64,000 nucleotides of DNA from Wocania arenilitoris (GTDB lineage Bacteria > Bacteroidota > Bacteroidia > Flavobacteriales > Flavobacteriaceae): assembly GCF_021728535.1 (NCBI RefSeq), contig NZ_JAKKDU010000019.1, positions 1-64,000 on the forward strand. The letters are read 5' to 3'. This document shows, piece after piece, positions 45,482-51,265 of the stretch. The translations under genes and the position numbers were made by a program. Numbering within the stretch: the stretch's first letter is position 1; each line of letters begins with the position of its first letter. Under the pieces are notes generated by a model that saw only the letters and a program-made list of their open reading frames with translations, had not been told where the DNA came from and did not search any database.

Positions 45482-47502
45482 TGGCTTATATCTTTTAATA
45501 ATTTTTTAGCAAATTTTGAAAATCGCCAGTTATGATGCTTAGTTGCTTGTTTTAAATTGTCTTGACATTTTTCATCACACGAACTTATCCATGCTAAATA
45601 ACTAAAAGCATTCATTCTAACTTCAAAACCGTATTTATTACTTGTGTAATCAAGTAATTCATTAAAATAGCGCTCATTATTTTCTGACTCAAAATCATCA
45701 CTAATTAAAGCCAAAGTTAACCAAAGTATTCTTATATTTTTATCATTAAAGCCAACAACTTCTTTTGTTTTAGATAGATATTTATTTTGGTCGTTCGGAA
45801 AATTATTCCACAAATTAAATAAAGCAGCTTCGATGGTAATGTATGATTTATCATTTAAAAGCGATTCATAATCTTCTTTTAATTCTAAAGGTATTTTTGA
45901 CAAATTTTTAGCTATGGCTTGGCGGACTTTCAAACTTTTATTAAAAAATGTAGATTTAGAAATATTTGATCCTAATTGTTCTACTATTTTTTCATTTAAA
46001 AACTCATCTTTAGAAACCAACAATAGCGTCTTGCATACTTCTGGATGTCCATTACAATCAATTGGGTAGTATCTATAAGTAAAATCTACATTACTTGCAT
46101 GTCCTAAACTGCTCAAAACACTCTTCGGAAAAAAATATTTTTCTATCTCATCATAATTAAGACTTTCGCTTTTTAGCCAAAAATCAACAAACTCACCTAA
46201 GTTCTCTCCACTAGCCTTTTCAACTTCAACTATAAAATCATTGGTTTCAACATTCTTAAATTGATGCTTCTTTAGATAGTTTTTAATTGCCTTTTTAAAA
46301 GCTTTGTCACCAACGCGCGCTCTTAAAATATGCAACACCCAAGCACCCTTTTTATAAAACGTTGTGCTACTCGATTTAGGGTTTAAAAGCGAAGTGCTTC
46401 CCCCTGCTTTATCTTGCTCTAACAGCTCTTGTGCATACTCATATAATCGCCAGTAGTAATAATCGTCTCCAAAAATATCGCGTTCTGCTAACAATGCATA
46501 ATAGGTTGCAAAACCTTCTTGTAGCCAATGGTGTGTTCCAGAGGTTTCTGTAACCAAATTTCCAAACCATTGGTGTGCTAGTTCGTGCGCGTTTACGTTT
46601 ACGTAGTTTTTATCAACAAATCCAATAGAGTCAGTTAAAAAAGAGTCAGCAAAAATAGTTGTTCCTGTATTTTCCATTCCGGCATACAAAAAATCTTTTA
46701 CAGGGACTTGTTTGTAGTTTTGCCACGGATATGGCACACCTATTTCTTCCTCTAAAAAATCGAACATGTGTTTCGTGTAGCGATAAGTAGGTTCTACTTT
46801 TAACGAATCCTCTAGGTAATAATACATTTCTAAAGGAATACCACTTTTTGAGTATTCTACTTTTTTATTGTATTTACCAATAGCTAATGCGACTAAATAG
46901 CTAGACATGGGTTTTTGCATGTCATAGCGCCACATCGTTGTCGATTCGCCGATTAACTTATCTGTTAACTTCCCGTTGGCGATAACTTTATAATCAGAAT
47001 CAAAAGTAATTGATAAATCGAATTCAATTTTATCATTCATATCGTCAATACTTGGCAACCAATTGCTTGTGTACTTGCCTTGACCTTGGGTCCAGACCTG
47101 CTCTTTTAGGTGATCGAGGTTCTCGAAATCACCACTTTCATTTTTCCAATCTATAAAATACATGGCTTTTTGAGGGGTGGCTATCCAAACTACATCAAGT
47201 TTATGTGTAGTATTCGCTTTAAAAGGATATTTTATAATTAGCTGCTTACCATTGTAAGTTTTTCCAGTTATATTTCCATCAAGAATATATTCAATTTCAT
47301 TAAAGTTATTTGCGTCAATAAAAATAGAATCTACATTTTTTAAAATTTTAAATTGATAAATAATAAGCCCCTTAATTTCTTTTTTTACTAAATTACTAAA
47401 AATAATATCCGCTTCAGCTGTTTTAAAATCAACATATTCCGTTTGTTGAGAAAACCCAAAAAAGCTAAGAAATAATAAAAAAAGAAGCACTAAAATTTTC
47501 AT
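45478..47502 (-). CDS. Secreted M1 family metallopeptidase
   Basis: Translation from ATG 47502 gives a signal peptide (MKILVLLFLLFLSFFGFSQQ); the 30-residue upstream extension to 47592 is implausible. The gluzincin motif is NVNAHELAHQWFGNLVTETS (HExxH), with the third ligand Glu in LQEGFATYYALLAERD. The exopeptidase motif appears as AGMENTGTTIFADS. A HEAT-like C-terminal region follows from about residue 520. It is a periplasmic or secreted aminopeptidase. The gene is followed by patatin with a 4-bp overlap and is divergent from recG. Confidence 0.92.
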   Translation of the reverse strand: MKILVLLFLLFLSFFGFSQQTEYVDFKTAEADIIFSNLVKKEIKGLIIYQFKILKNVDSIFIDANNFNEIEYILDGNITGKTYNGKQLIIKYPFKANTTHKLDVVWIATPQKAMYFIDWKNESGDFENLDHLKEQVWTQGQGKYTSNWLPSIDDMNDKIEFDLSITFDSDYKVIANGKLTDKLIGESTTMWRYDMQKPMSSYLVALAIGKYNKKVEYSKSGIPLEMYYYLEDSLKVEPTYRYTKHMFDFLEEEIGVPYPWQNYKQVPVKDFLYAGMENTGTTIFADSFLTDSIGFVDKNYVNVNAHELAHQWFGNLVTETSGTHHWLQEGFATYYALLAERDIFGDDYYYWRLYEYAQELLEQDKAGGSTSLLNPKSSSTTFYKKGAWVLHILRARVGDKAFKKAIKNYLKKHQFKNVETNDFIVEVEKASGENLGEFVDFWLKSESLNYDEIEKYFFPKSVLSSLGHASNVDFTYRYYPIDCNGHPEVCKTLLLVSKDEFLNEKIVEQLGSNISKSTFFNKSLKVRQAIAKNLSKIPLELKEDYESLLNDKSYITIEAALFNLWNNFPNDQNKYLSKTKEVVGFNDKNIRILWLTLALISDDFESENNERYFNELLDYTSNKYGFEVRMNAFSYLAWISSCDEKCQDNLKQATKHHNWRFSKFAKKLLKDISQ

Positions 47503-47574
47503 ATTTAAACCACAACAAGTATTAGACCAAAATAGCACTTTTAATCTTAATTGAAATACACTAAATTCGCTTTT

Positions 47575-50112
47575 ATGTCTGTTAACCTTCAAACTCCAAT
47601 AGATTATTTAAAAGGCGTTGGCCCTAATCGTGGTGATTTGCTACGCAAGGAGTTGGGTATTTATACGTATCAGGATTTAATCAACCTATTTCCAAATAGA
47701 TATATAGACAGAACACAGTATTACAAAATCAATCAATTACAACGTAATAATGCCGATGTACAAGTTATTGGTAAAATAATAGGTTTTAAAGAGGTTACAC
47801 AAAAACGAGGAAAGCGATTGGTGGCAAATTTTCAAGACGAAACTGGTACCATGGAACTCGTTTGGTTTAGAGGACAAAAATGGATTAGAGAAAATCTAAA
47901 ACTTAACAAACCTTACGTTGCTTTTGGAAAAACCAATTGGTTTAATGGTAAATTTAACATGGCTCATCCAGATTTAGAACTTCTGGAAGAACATAAAAAA
48001 AATCTACGTTCTGGTATGCAAGCCATTTACCCTTCTACAGAAAAATTATCAAATAAAGGTATTAATAACCGTGTGATAAGCAAAATCATGCAACAATTGT
48101 TTATAGAAACTAAAGGGATATTTGTAGAAACTTTATCAGATAATTTGCTTTCAGAATTAAAATTAATCTCAAAAAGAGAAGCTCTTTTTAATGTGCATTT
48201 TCCTAAAAATCAAGTGTTACTTTCTAAGGCACAATATCGATTAAAATTTGAAGAATTATTCTACATTCAATTACAGCTCATTATAAAAAACCTTATTCAT
48301 AAATCTAAAATCAAAGGATTTCCTTTTGAAAAAGTTGGCAATTATTTTAACAGCTTTTTTAAAAACCATTTGCCATTCGAATTAACCAATGCACAGAAAC
48401 GTGTGTTAAAAGAAATTCGTGCAGATTTAGGCAGTAATGCACAAATGAATCGACTTTTACAAGGCGATGTTGGCTCTGGGAAGACCATAGTAGCGTTTAT
48501 GTCAATGTTAATAGCACTTGACAACGGTTTTCAATCCTGTTTAATGGCGCCGACTGAAATTTTGTCAGTCCAGCACTATAATGGATTATATGATTTATGT
48601 AACTTATTAAATATCAGAATAAAACTACTAACTGGTTCAACTAAAACTTCAGAAAGAAAAAAAATTCACGAATCTTTAGAAAATGGCGATTTACAAATAC
48701 TAATTGGCACACACGCACTACTTGAAGATAAGGTTAAATTTAAAAATTTAGGGCTTGCCATTATTGATGAGCAACATCGTTTTGGAGTAGCTCAGCGCTC
48801 AAAATTATGGAAGAAAGGCCCTCCTCAATCCTCCCATAAGAAGGACGCAAAAGCGATACGCAAAAAATATATGACTGCTCGCCCATCAACCTATAAATTA
48901 TTAATAGAACTTCAGGTTGAAAATAAAAAAAATAGCACGCAAGTAGAATCTATTTTATGGGAATGTCTGAGAAATAAAAAGCTAGATTTCAAATTTAGAA
49001 GACAATATATTATTGATGAATTGATAGTTGACTTTGTTTGCTTAGAAAAAAATTTAATTATTGAAGTTGATGGCGACTACCATAATACAATTGAACAAAA
49101 AGAGGCTGATGATTTAAGAACCCAAATATTAAATGAAATTGGTTTTAAAGTCATTCGATTTACCAATGAACAAGTAATCGGTGATATTGATAACGTTCTT
49201 AATTATATTGTAAAAACTTTAAAAAGCCTCCCCTCTGGGGAGATTGGTGGGGCTTCTACCCCTCCACACATTTTAGTCATGACCGCCACCCCTATCCCGC
49301 GTACCTTAGCCATGTCTGTTTATGGCGATTTAGATATCTCCATTATTGATGAATTACCACCAGGACGCAAGCCTGTAAAAACGGTTCATAGATACGACAA
49401 AAACCGATTGAATGTTTTTCGATTTATTAGAGATGAAATTGATAAAGGCAGGCAAATTTACATTGTATATCCGCTAATCAAAGAAAGTTCCGCAATGGAT
49501 TACAAAGATTTGATGGATGGTTACGAAAGTATTTCGAGGGATTTCCCGATGCCCAAATATCAAATATCTATTGTTCATGGTAAAATGAAACCAGCAGATA
49601 AAGATTTTGAAATGCAGCGTTTTATAAAAGGTGAAACCCAAATTATGGTCGCAACAACAGTTATTGAAGTTGGTGTTAATGTACCCAATGCCTCGATTAT
49701 GATTATTGAAAGCGCAGAACGTTTTGGCTTGTCGCAACTCCACCAACTACGCGGTCGTGTTGGTCGTGGCGTAGAACAAAGCTATTGTATCTTAATGACG
49801 AGTCATAAACTTACCAATGATAGTAAAACCCGCTTAGAAACTATGGTTAAAACCAATGATGGTTTTGAAATTGCTGAAGTTGATTTACGTTTACGTGGTC
49901 CTGGAGATATTATGGGCACGCAACAAAGCGGTGTCTTAAGTTTAAAAATTGCAGATATTATTAAGGATAACAATATTTTGCAAAGTGCCAGATTTTATGC
50001 TAAAAAGACTCTTCTCAATGACCCTGCCCTTTCTAAACCAGAACACAGTGTATTACTTGAAACATACAAACAACTAGGGAAATACAAGAATATTTGGAAT
50101 TATATTAGTTAA
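47575..50112 (+). CDS. recG: ATP-dependent DNA helicase RecG with inserted DUF559 nuclease domain
   Basis: From ATG 47575 the product is 845 aa, against about 700 for relatives. The N-terminal wedge domain includes PIDYLKGVGPNRGDLL and an OB-fold. Helicase motifs are GDVGSGKT (I, about residue 296), APTEILSVQHY, DEQHRFGVAQRSKLW (II, about 397), TATPIPRTLAMS (III, about 569), VIEVGVNVPNAS and QLRGRVGRG (VI). Between motifs II and III, residues 416-562 are a complete DUF559 endonuclease-like domain inserted without changing frame. RecG remodels stalled forks and Holliday junctions. Whether the motor still works with the insertion is unknown. The reading frame is intact and all motifs are kept, so it does not look like a pseudogene. 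Confidence 0.93.
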   Translation: MSVNLQTPIDYLKGVGPNRGDLLRKELGIYTYQDLINLFPNRYIDRTQYYKINQLQRNNADVQVIGKIIGFKEVTQKRGKRLVANFQDETGTMELVWFRGQKWIRENLKLNKPYVAFGKTNWFNGKFNMAHPDLELLEEHKKNLRSGMQAIYPSTEKLSNKGINNRVISKIMQQLFIETKGIFVETLSDNLLSELKLISKREALFNVHFPKNQVLLSKAQYRLKFEELFYIQLQLIIKNLIHKSKIKGFPFEKVGNYFNSFFKNHLPFELTNAQKRVLKEIRADLGSNAQMNRLLQGDVGSGKTIVAFMSMLIALDNGFQSCLMAPTEILSVQHYNGLYDLCNLLNIRIKLLTGSTKTSERKKIHESLENGDLQILIGTHALLEDKVKFKNLGLAIIDEQHRFGVAQRSKLWKKGPPQSSHKKDAKAIRKKYMTARPSTYKLLIELQVENKKNSTQVESILWECLRNKKLDFKFRRQYIIDELIVDFVCLEKNLIIEVDGDYHNTIEQKEADDLRTQILNEIGFKVIRFTNEQVIGDIDNVLNYIVKTLKSLPSGEIGGASTPPHILVMTATPIPRTLAMSVYGDLDISIIDELPPGRKPVKTVHRYDKNRLNVFRFIRDEIDKGRQIYIVYPLIKESSAMDYKDLMDGYESISRDFPMPKYQISIVHGKMKPADKDFEMQRFIKGETQIMVATTVIEVGVNVPNASIMIIESAERFGLSQLHQLRGRVGRGVEQSYCILMTSHKLTNDSKTRLETMVKTNDGFEIAEVDLRLRGPGDIMGTQQSGVLSLKIADIIKDNNILQSARFYAKKTLLNDPALSKPEHSVLLETYKQLGKYKNIWNYIS
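48820..49260 (+). mobile_element. In-frame DUF559-encoding insertion element in recG
   Basis: A 441-bp (147-codon) insertion. CCTCC at 48820-48824 and 49261-49265 may mark a target duplication. The ends are imperfect inverted repeats: GGCCCTCCTCAATCCTCCC at 48817-48835 against the complement of GGGGAGATTGGTGGGGC at 49237-49253. Inside is an intact Vsr-like PD-(D/E)xK domain of DUF559 type: FKFRRQYIIDELIVDFVCL, NLIIEVDGDYH, and GFKVIRFTNEQV. An internal ATG at 48871, in frame, could also make a free nuclease. From memory, similar DUF559 segments sit in other genes of Bacteroidota. How they move is not known to me. Confidence 0.82.
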
Positions 50113-50141
50113 AAGGTTCAACCGTAATCGATTGAACCTTT
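50112..50141. terminator. Bidirectional terminator recG / DUF2911 gene
   Basis: AAAGGTTCAA at 50112-50121 pairs perfectly with TTGAACCTTT at 50132-50141, with A- and T-runs on both sides. It starts at the recG stop and lies between convergent genes. Confidence 0.7.
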
Positions 50142-50173
50142 AAAAACTGATTGTAGTTTGATTGATGATTTTT

Positions 50174-51265
50174 TTATATAACGCCTAATTCTTTCAAATG
50201 TTTTTCAGAATTAGCTTTTACATTAGCAGGCGGATTAAGTGCTAATGATTTTTTAAAGTTTTTTATAGCATTCTTTTTATCTCCCATGTTTTTATAACAC
50301 TCACCCAAACTATCATAAACATTAGCATTTTTTGGATTATTGTAAACATTTAATTTAAAATATTTTAGGGCTCTGTTAAAATCCTTTATGGCCATCATTT
50401 GGTAGCCCAATGTGTTTAATTGATTTGTGTTAGCCATAGCTGAAGCTTCGTCCATTAATGCAGCATACTCATCTGTTCTTCCTAATTTATTAAGTATCTG
50501 TCCTTTAATCGCTAGATTATTAAACGTTTTTTGACTGTAAAAATTACCGGCTATAGCACCGTCAATCCATTTTAAAGCTTCGTTTAAATCACCACCATTG
50601 CCTAAAGAAAAACGTGCCATATTCTCCCAGTTTTGTCTTTGAAAGCCTAATCTACCATTAGATTTACTCTTAAACTCATCAACAACAATACTGGTAACAT
50701 CAAAAGACACATTAAAAGGAAATCCTTTTTTCTCCCAAGCTAACATAGCTATTGTAGAGTTTTTATCAACACTATTAAATTCAAAAGTCAATAATTCATG
50801 GTGAGGAACAGAAGTCGTTTTAATATCTGCTCTTAGAGCATCATTTTTAGCATCATAATAATAACTCCCCCAAGCATTATAATCGTGAGATAAAATAATA
50901 GTTGCATTATTTTCGTCTTTAACTTCTACAAAAAAGCCGTATGTTCCTGCCTTAATTGGCTTCCCTTCAACTTTGGCATCATGAGAAAAAGTAATTGTTG
51001 TATTTTCGTTTGCACCTGCACGCCATGGAGCTTGTTGAGACGTTCCAAATCCTAGATAATTTAAGCCATATGGCACCAGTTTACCCCAGACCTCTCGATT
51101 ATTAACGCTTGGTCTAGCATAAGTTATTGTAATATCAGAAATACCGACACGTTGAGACACTGTAGCCTGTTGACTACCACGTGGTGTATTTAATTGGGCA
51201 AAAGCACTAAGACTAAAAATGAGTACTAGTAGAATGCTAAAGGTGATTAGTTTACTGTTTTTCAT
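50174..51265 (-). CDS. DUF2911 domain protein with TPR repeats
   Basis: From ATG 51265 the product is 363 aa with a signal peptide (MKNSKLITFSILLVLIFSLS, AFAQ). The DUF2911 domain covers about 22-190, with the typical PRGSQQATVSQRVG, ITITYARPSVNNREVWG and PWRAGANENTTI. TPR-like helices follow from about 220 to the end (ALKYFKLNVYNNPKNANVYD, YKNMGDKKNAIKNFKKSL). DUF2911 proteins are frequent exported proteins in Bacteroidota with no known activity; the TPRs suggest a binding role. The gene stands alone between recG (convergent) and the MutS2-like gene (divergent). Confidence 0.9.
   Translation of the reverse strand: MKNSKLITFSILLVLIFSLSAFAQLNTPRGSQQATVSQRVGISDITITYARPSVNNREVWGKLVPYGLNYLGFGTSQQAPWRAGANENTTITFSHDAKVEGKPIKAGTYGFFVEVKDENNATIILSHDYNAWGSYYYDAKNDALRADIKTTSVPHHELLTFEFNSVDKNSTIAMLAWEKKGFPFNVSFDVTSIVVDEFKSKSNGRLGFQRQNWENMARFSLGNGGDLNEALKWIDGAIAGNFYSQKTFNNLAIKGQILNKLGRTDEYAALMDEASAMANTNQLNTLGYQMMAIKDFNRALKYFKLNVYNNPKNANVYDSLGECYKNMGDKKNAIKNFKKSLALNPPANVKANSEKHLKELGVI

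Follow-up and report, generated by a model that had tools for sequence, protein, structure and literature searches.

A DUF559 nuclease element with hairpin ends, inserted in frame in recG and other conserved genes of Bacteroidota

Palindromic elements inserted in frame in protein-coding genes have been described in Rickettsia and Wolbachia, and inteins and introns are familiar cases of nuclease elements residing within genes. Here, we describe a locus that combines both features. In the first 64,000 nucleotides of contig NZ_JAKKDU010000019.1 of Wocania arenilitoris (Flavobacteriaceae; this whole stretch is called the window hereafter), the recG gene contains an in-frame element of 444 bp that encodes a DUF559 nuclease domain. 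We consider it likely that this is a mobile, non-splicing nuclease element, made of the DUF559 domain between GC-rich hairpin inverted repeats and presumably spreading by homing. The combination, in a nuclease element that to judge from the sequence stays in the protein, appears to be new: we found no published account of in-frame DUF559 elements in the open full-text PMC literature, a scope that mostly leaves out subscription papers and preprints.

Inteins with homing endonucleases are one of the closest described systems. They also place a nuclease in frame in conserved proteins, at fixed sites, with copies that sort by site and are scattered among empty sites (some of these features are given in an excerpt of PMC3943268, others are general knowledge). 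In contrast to inteins, we found neither a splicing domain nor splice-junction residues in the element, which we predict to remain part of the host protein and which is flanked by hairpin inverted repeats in the DNA. The nearest precedent for palindromic DNA inserted in frame in unrelated genes is provided by the Rickettsia and Wolbachia palindromic elements (RPE and WPE), which excerpts of two papers (PMC10969869 and PMC4224334) describe in unrelated metabolic and repair genes, most of which are apparently not inactivated; in one of these excerpts, from a review, RPEs measure around 150 bp and encode a conserved peptide. The element shares the palindromic DNA ends and the in-frame insertion in genes of unrelated proteins. 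It differs from these short, enzyme-free elements in its length and its complete nuclease domain, in the sorting of its copies by site, and in the phylum that carries it.

The DUF559 domain itself has relatives of several kinds. Vsr is a mismatch-repair nicking enzyme, whose fold resembles that of the insert. Caulobacter VsrA is described as a DUF559 protein in an excerpt of PMC12907096, where it is reported to be the cause of an SOS response seen in some of the cells that lack a methyltransferase; members of the DUF559 family can therefore damage DNA in vivo. The homing endonuclease I-Bth0305I (EDxHD; 3r3p) shares both the fold and a recognisable sequence profile; it is a long multi-domain enzyme with a target of nearly 60 bp (excerpt of PMC3943268), whereas the element has the catalytic domain only. 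Finally, the systems formed by repetitive extragenic palindromes and their associated tyrosine transposases (REP/RAYT) and the IS200/IS605 elements have hairpin ends around one small nuclease gene, an arrangement found here too. Between the hairpins of the element, we found no HUH (Y1) transposase but a Vsr-like nuclease, the only Pfam matches in the insert being DUF559 and the overlapping MTES_1575, and the copies lie within proteins.

The nuclease insert of recG and its empty alleles

The host gene recG (47575..50112, plus strand, as are all features given here) encodes an ATP-dependent DNA helicase with matches to Pfam RecG_wedge, DEAD, Helicase_C and RecG_dom3_C and to NCBIfam RecG. It starts with an ATG at 47575, its stop codon ends at 50112, and a single frame, open for 853 codons from a TTG in the list of open reading frames, runs through the insert; the description of this gene as uninterrupted in an earlier note on the window was thus correct. 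The element (48817..49260) lies between two conserved host motifs, DEQH (48766..48777) and TATPIPRT (49282..49305), which we take, as did that note, to be helicase motifs II and III. Pfam places DUF559 (PF04480; 48925..49221) between the DEAD and Helicase_C domains (E 1.2e-29), with a score of 102.8-108.6 bits that exceeds the gathering score of 20.6 and makes it a member of the family.

Three congeners (91-93% amino acid identity) have an empty allele reading KLWKKNTSPPHVLVMTATPIPRT, in which the host residues are contiguous over the site; in their DNA, query residues 413 and 559 are directly adjacent. This alignment, which the earlier note had proposed as a check, gives the exact junction: WKK-NTS-PPH in the empty alleles faces WKK-G...-PPH in the filled one, so that 148 codons stand in place of three host codons. 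The stretch compared around the site measures 174 codons in the window and 29 in empty alleles, a net gain of 145; the gain of 147 codons claimed previously was rightly located but wrong in number. The right junction is formed by the Pro-Pro-His codons of the host (49261..49269). The pentamer CCTCC is found at 48820 and again at 49261, with a spacing of exactly 441 bp, as already seen, and could suggest a target-site duplication. We rejected this possibility, because the right copy is made up of Pro-Pro codons that belong to the host, the left one is part of the element end, and CCTCC is present at the right junction in just five of the 14 filled recG genes.

The nuclease domain is well conserved. 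D73, E84, D86 and H90, corresponding to the D of a VDF motif and to the ExDG and H residues, are invariant together with eight more columns in the 61 copies that were aligned out of 80 at hand, in agreement with the candidate catalytic residues pointed out beforehand. A structural model of the insert (predicted local distance difference test, pLDDT, 81; predicted template modelling score, pTM, 0.75) matches the free-standing DUF559 protein 3hrl (NGO0050; Z 15.2, 1.3 A), I-Bth0305I (Z 11.9) and Vsr (1cw0; Z 10.6), and a sequence profile matches 3hrl (E 1.8e-29) and I-Bth0305I (E 2.3e-7). The predicted nuclease thus resembles Vsr and I-Bth0305I, with 3hrl as its best match in both sequence and fold. 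The Foldseek list for this model also held mitoribosomal proteins. RecG relatives of known structure are available (1gm5 and 9wm0); an AlphaFold2 model of RecG with its insert, built from 15 sequences, had a mean pLDDT of 59.7 and a pTM of 0.30 and was not used.

A search with the window RecG detected the gene in 30 of 31 genomes (including that of the window), and the stretch from DEQH to TATPIPRT has no DUF559 block in any of the 29 others, where it measures 35 amino acids in 27 cases, 45 in L039 and 42 in L052 (10 and 7 more). In the family, 14 of 397 assemblies carry the insert at the same recG site with a diverged sequence, and filled recG genes are also present in named genomes, including Tamlana nanhaiensis, Flavobacterium difficile and Maribacter luteus. 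Such recurrence of diverged inserts in independent assemblies already refutes an assembly artefact or chimera, a possibility that no observation favours and that can practically be dismissed.

In a tree of 70 recG genes built with the insert left out (14 filled, seven with a short linker and 49 empty), the 14 filled copies imply 12 changes of state, against an average of 13.0 after shuffling, and 124 of the 500 shuffles need no more than 12. The filled state is therefore scattered, without clear clustering by descent. Pairs of filled and empty genes within one genus occur in that of the window and in G348/G151, G288/G021, G173/G361, G405/G238 and G378/G198, and there is a single filled/reduced pair (G418/G260). 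A site filled in some alleles and empty in others is also a feature of homing elements.

Seven recG genes have 9-20 extra in-frame codons at the insert site, e.g., KGPPQSSN-GGASIPPH (L168) and KGSSSGEVGGAFIPPH (L148), in which the nuclease is gone and the frame kept. By reading, six of these short linkers look like remnants of the element, L039 not being counted among them. Directly after WKK (or its equivalent), all 49 empty genes have Asn, whereas all 21 filled or reduced genes have Gly or Ser, and Ile precedes Pro-Pro in 17 of the 21 versus six of the 49 (Fisher p 4.8e-8, a guide only since the genes are related). These junction residues indicate that filled and reduced genes share a history apart from the empty ones. 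The empty alleles look as if they had never been occupied, or had been restored by recombination, rather than loosely excised.

Relatives in other proteins and their phylogeny

The element has many relatives in other genes. DUF559 matches are present at E 0.001 in 28 of 99 genomes (window genome included), the best ones within very long frames, and at E 1e-10 in 142 of the 397 genomes of the family. The 53 best-scoring matches, from 44 of these 397 genomes, are all located in frames of 573-1287 amino acids, whose hosts were identified from the frame, from NCBIfam and Pfam on nine representatives, and by reading of translations: leuS (24), recG (14), metH (11), ileS (2) and hisD (2). Matches listed below these 53 are mostly in short frames (113-202 amino acids), with nine in frames of 346-416. 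Further down the list, a strongly diverged copy in a leuS frame of 1138 amino acids (G005; recorded as both L130 and L023) has an altered EVDG..H stretch and looks like a copy that is decaying while still in frame.

A scan of named genomes gave 574 confirmed stretches, of which we analysed the best 80, a biased top slice. All 80 records belong to Bacteroidota by title; 73 are in frames of at least 320 amino acids and the other seven are short, broken or frameless. The hosts are leuS (18), recG (15), ileS (13), metH (6), valS (5) and 16 further proteins. The 57 copies in the five named hosts were mostly assigned by blastp to the references of this analysis; NCBIfam, applied to 11 of them, reassigned five from ileS to valS. 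The other 16, identified by NCBIfam or Pfam, are urocanate hydratase (HutU), an ABC-F protein, MazG (2), a LegC-type aminotransferase, RdgB, PaaZ, RecJ (2), CinA, UvrA, a CoA-transferase, a WbcJ-like reductase, WecB, RNase H and a type ISP restriction-modification protein. With HisD and HemD as additional hosts, relatives of the element occur in frame in at least 21 protein families, all those found being from Bacteroidota. The insertion is internal in around 16 of the 21 (one host model matching in at least two stretches around the insert); in HisD and HemD it is fused terminally, and the cases of the aminotransferase, reductase and RNase H were placed in neither class. Four pairs of loci from the two surveys correspond to the same element in the same genome and were counted once, giving 124 distinct in-gene elements. 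In viral contigs, 82 stretches encode a relative; among the 80 retained, the closest (L267, 52% identity) is in valS, the only one whose reading frame we inspected, and the next by E-value has 43% identity.

The search for copies elsewhere, also proposed in the earlier note, was thus successful in other genomes, the window genome itself containing the recG copy only. An old, immobile domain had been expected there to occupy the same site in all related genera, with no copies elsewhere and no relatives with an empty site; none of this is what we found.

Some of these loci deserve mention. Seven DUF559 matches reach E 1e-10 in G435 (one contig), and three of these are insertions in leuS, metH and ileS. 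In L111, L131 and L016 (the latter by reading only), DUF559 is fused to the N-terminus of uroporphyrinogen-III synthase (hemD); L111 and L131 group with free-standing DUF559 genes, and the hemD fusions probably correspond to a separate capture. In L217, from an uncultured Prevotella, RdgB, which contains an internal DUF559 element, continues without a change of frame into PorZ, a protein of type IX secretion.

Insertion in conserved proteins together with a Vsr-like nuclease is reminiscent of some introns and inteins, and the element could be one that splices out and so restores the host protein. No Hint splicing domain was detected by Pfam in the insert, and the stretches of around 36 residues to the left and 13-15 to the right of the DUF559 match are too short for such a domain, whose size we quote as commonly given. 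Nor did we see a splice-junction nucleophile: the first insert residue is Gly (12) or Ser (2) in the recG copies, and no conserved Cys, Ser or Thr follows the right end. In a check for a self-splicing RNA, no Rfam match of any kind was obtained up to E 1 over recG (47500-50200), and the element is open throughout, with no stop. Nothing indicates splicing, which makes an intein or intron very improbable, and we expect the insert to remain in the protein. In 16 of 16 genomes searched, out of the 24 with a filled leuS, the filled gene is the sole leuS, with both model matches in the same frame. As leuS is essential, the interrupted leucyl-tRNA synthetase (LeuRS) must work, and we infer that the host protein stays functional.

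A tree of 77 DUF559 domains, with eight labels, groups all 56 in-gene domains other than two hemD fusions in one clade (support 97/88). The labels require eight changes (minimum 7; shuffled mean 43.8): recG, ileS, hisD and hemD each lie on one side of a branch, leuS and the first metH site need three changes each, and the second metH site (two rows) lies among the first. The inserted nucleases, hemD fusions apart, therefore sort by insertion site, as intein alleles do. Free-standing DUF559 genes, in frames of around 110-200 amino acids among those surveyed, belong to the same family and fall outside the embedded clade. The insert data reject the host topology (approximately unbiased test, p 2.6e-5 for protein and 0.0045 for DNA), and the converse test, of the insert topologies on the host data, likewise ends in rejection (p 1.6e-7 and 1.05e-4). 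The insert thus has a history unlike that of its host, as in the horizontal spread of homing elements at fixed sites. Two MetH proteins carry copies at two sites. In L098 (G256), the two copies share 85% identity in protein and 82% in DNA and are the closest of the pairs listed, suggesting that one gave rise to the other at a second site, or that conversion took place later; in L255, from a metagenome-assembled genome of Flavobacterium sp., they are only 50% identical.

The ends of the element

The ends of the recG copies are imperfect inverted repeats forming GC-rich hairpins, CCTCCC....GGGAGG on the left and CTCCC....GGGGAGGTTGG.GGGGCT on the right. GC-rich hairpins in inverted orientation likewise start and finish the copies that we read among the listed leuS and metH ones. 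In the window, the left end (48818..48846) has a decayed inner hairpin (fold z-score 0.04); the right end (49228..49254), consisting of the hairpin CTCCCCTCTGGGGAG followed by ATTGGTGGGGCT and inverted relative to the left one, has a z-score of -1.48. The local inverted-repeat score of these two ends is 14, compared with a shuffled mean of 14.4 for all elements. Imperfect inverted repeats had been claimed for this copy; the claim holds across the recG copies, but the window's own two ends alone do not stand out and it is the relatives that reveal the repeat. Over the 124 distinct elements, the mean score reaches 25.4, compared with 14.4 after shuffling and 14.0 in host flanks at a distance of 300 bp, and 63 of the 124 score above all 30 of their own shuffles, against three of 123 control flanks.

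The strongest result on the ends is the conservation of their silent sites. Among 11 close recG copies, identity at 4-fold silent sites is 91% (230/252) at the left end and 77% (257/334) at the right one, against 42% (521/1227) in the core and 40% (4344/10787) in the host, composition alone predicting 33 and 31% for the two ends. Protein identity is reversed, with 66 and 70% at the ends, 79% in the core and 85% in the host. The same pattern is present in leuS group B (15 distinct copies; ends 78 and 78%, core 38, host 34), metH (9; ends 71 and 76%, core 36, host 30) and leuS group A (6; ends 76 and 56%, core 37, host 33), and is weaker in ileS (9; ends 48 and 56%, core 35, host 35). Because their silent sites are conserved over those of core and host, the ends are held as DNA, like the ends of mobile elements.

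These data bear on the possibility that the insert is an old functional domain of RecG and its other hosts, e.g., a nuclease for repair or defence whose fusion benefits the host, maintained by selection but since lost from many lineages. The core does evolve under purifying selection, with its 79% amino acid identity and silent sites near the host level, the divergences of insert and host correlate, and RecG, RecJ and UvrA are DNA-repair proteins. However, the silent-site constraint is on the ends and not on the core, the topologies of insert and host conflict, and the empty recG alleles, with their uniform Asn after WKK, are unlike products of sloppy loss. Moreover, LeuRS, the isoleucyl- and valyl-tRNA synthetases (IleRS and ValRS), MetH and HutU are hosts as well, leaving no DNA function in common. 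We therefore regard an old domain as improbable.

Short end-like pieces, palindrome-like and lacking DUF559, also occur alone and in frame, at metH site B of L126 and L101 and at metH site A of L231, sites that carry a full DUF559 element in other genomes. Repeated in-frame end-like copies stand beside the nuclease in leuS of L119, uvrA of L236, valS of L206 and L208, and, from translation, in L245; direct repeats in the flanks measure 52 bp in L236, 46 in L206, 38 in L119 and 37 in L208. More generally, nine of the 124 elements have a direct repeat of at least 14 bp in their flanks, by eye mostly further end-like repeats. The hairpin ends could be the mobile unit, similar to REP sequences or miniature inverted-repeat transposable elements (MITEs) and moved in trans by, e.g., a Y1 transposase of the IS200/IS605 type, with DUF559 as a passenger or accessory. 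The solitary pieces in the three metH genes, the repeated copies in L119 and the conservation of the ends as DNA are in line with this, and a Y1_Tnp match is present in ten of the 14 genomes with a filled recG, the window genome having 14 such matches. The four others (G348, G204, G378 and G354), which are 99-100% complete, have none, even if a past donor is possible. Furthermore, DUF559 sorts by insertion site, and the D, E, D and H residues conserved in all 61 aligned copies would be unneeded in a passenger. These points make movement of the ends in trans unlikely.

Four of the 14 Y1 matches of the window genome are in frames of exactly 163 amino acids, and an IS200-type element may be active there. 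The same genome has three solitary end-like sequences outside recG (G000:C10:56212, C12:154240 and C37:73565); the gene just downstream of the second one is presumably metF. Several of the free-standing DUF559 genes at 19 loci whose flanks we read by eye adjoin similar GC-rich palindromes. The inverted repeats of L207 are almost perfect; of 247 genomes searched for an empty mazG site near them (241 matching), the nearest was 70% identical and too distant to give a junction.

A proposed route of spread and its significance

We return to the mobile nuclease element proposed at the outset. Its mobility is supported by the empty sites, the many unrelated host proteins, the sorting by site, a history unlike that of recG, ends conserved as DNA and the reduced versions kept in frame. 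Translated as Pro/Ser/Gly-rich linkers, the hairpin inverted repeats would allow the unit to be tolerated as an extra loop domain. The nuclease, whether still joined to the host protein or set free, would then cut alleles without the element, and homologous repair would copy the element into the cut allele, resulting in homing at a fixed site without splicing. The hairpin ends, which are also found alone, probably aid rarer jumps to new sites, such as the second metH site; they may be needed for entry at a new site or be recognised by a partner enzyme. Cutting and copying are the most likely source of the pattern made by fixed sites, empty alleles, site clades and conflicting histories. The earlier note had described a selfish or domesticated element that enters loops of conserved proteins in frame, like an intein that does not splice. 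The corresponding pattern is there, in the empty sites, 21 families, site clades, scatter, DNA-level conservation of the ends, and remnants; that the element is selfish and drives its own movement is what we infer from it.

Several observations weigh against this scenario. Both cutting and movement are deduced from patterns among sequences. The identities of host and insert correlate (Spearman 0.72, 91 pairs), which implies some shared, partially vertical descent; support inside the insert tree is modest, and the site clades could in part result from rare founding events and whole-gene transfer. Within 60 codons of the recG site, we detected no co-conversion (silent identity 0.422 among filled genes, null 0.420, 137 of 300 draws as high), whereas 100-300 codons upstream the filled genes reach 0.425 against a null of 0.389 (15 of 300), a rise that homing does not predict. 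The recG copies are old, because the silent identity of their core is close to that of the host, and old insertion events would have lost a co-conversion signal; one flanking residue, the Ile before Pro-Pro, is shared by most filled or reduced genes, as given above. No second DUF559 copy was found in a search of the window genome, and its end-like repeats amount to five matches against one in the reversed control, two of the five being inside the recG element. Finally, 115 of the 124 distinct elements lack a direct repeat of at least 14 bp within 300-bp flanks, target-site duplications shorter than 14 bp being outside the range of this test.

On balance, we lean towards a distinct class of selfish elements across Bacteroidota, in which the homing nuclease would itself be a tolerated domain, needing neither intron nor intein, and the hairpin ends would double as linkers. 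Such elements would cut empty alleles and thereby settle at fixed sites in some 20 conserved proteins, jump occasionally to new sites, and decay to short in-frame scars that persist as permanent inserts in core proteins. They seem to manage without splicing: RecG tolerates an insert of around 148 residues, and so does LeuRS in the genomes checked, where its gene has a single copy. They may explain DUF559 annotations within tRNA ligases and methionine synthase, and they offer a testable case of a nuclease expressed within the protein whose gene it would target. The elements would map, by natural means, the loops of essential enzymes that accept an insertion, and their in-frame scars would be a source of new protein segments.

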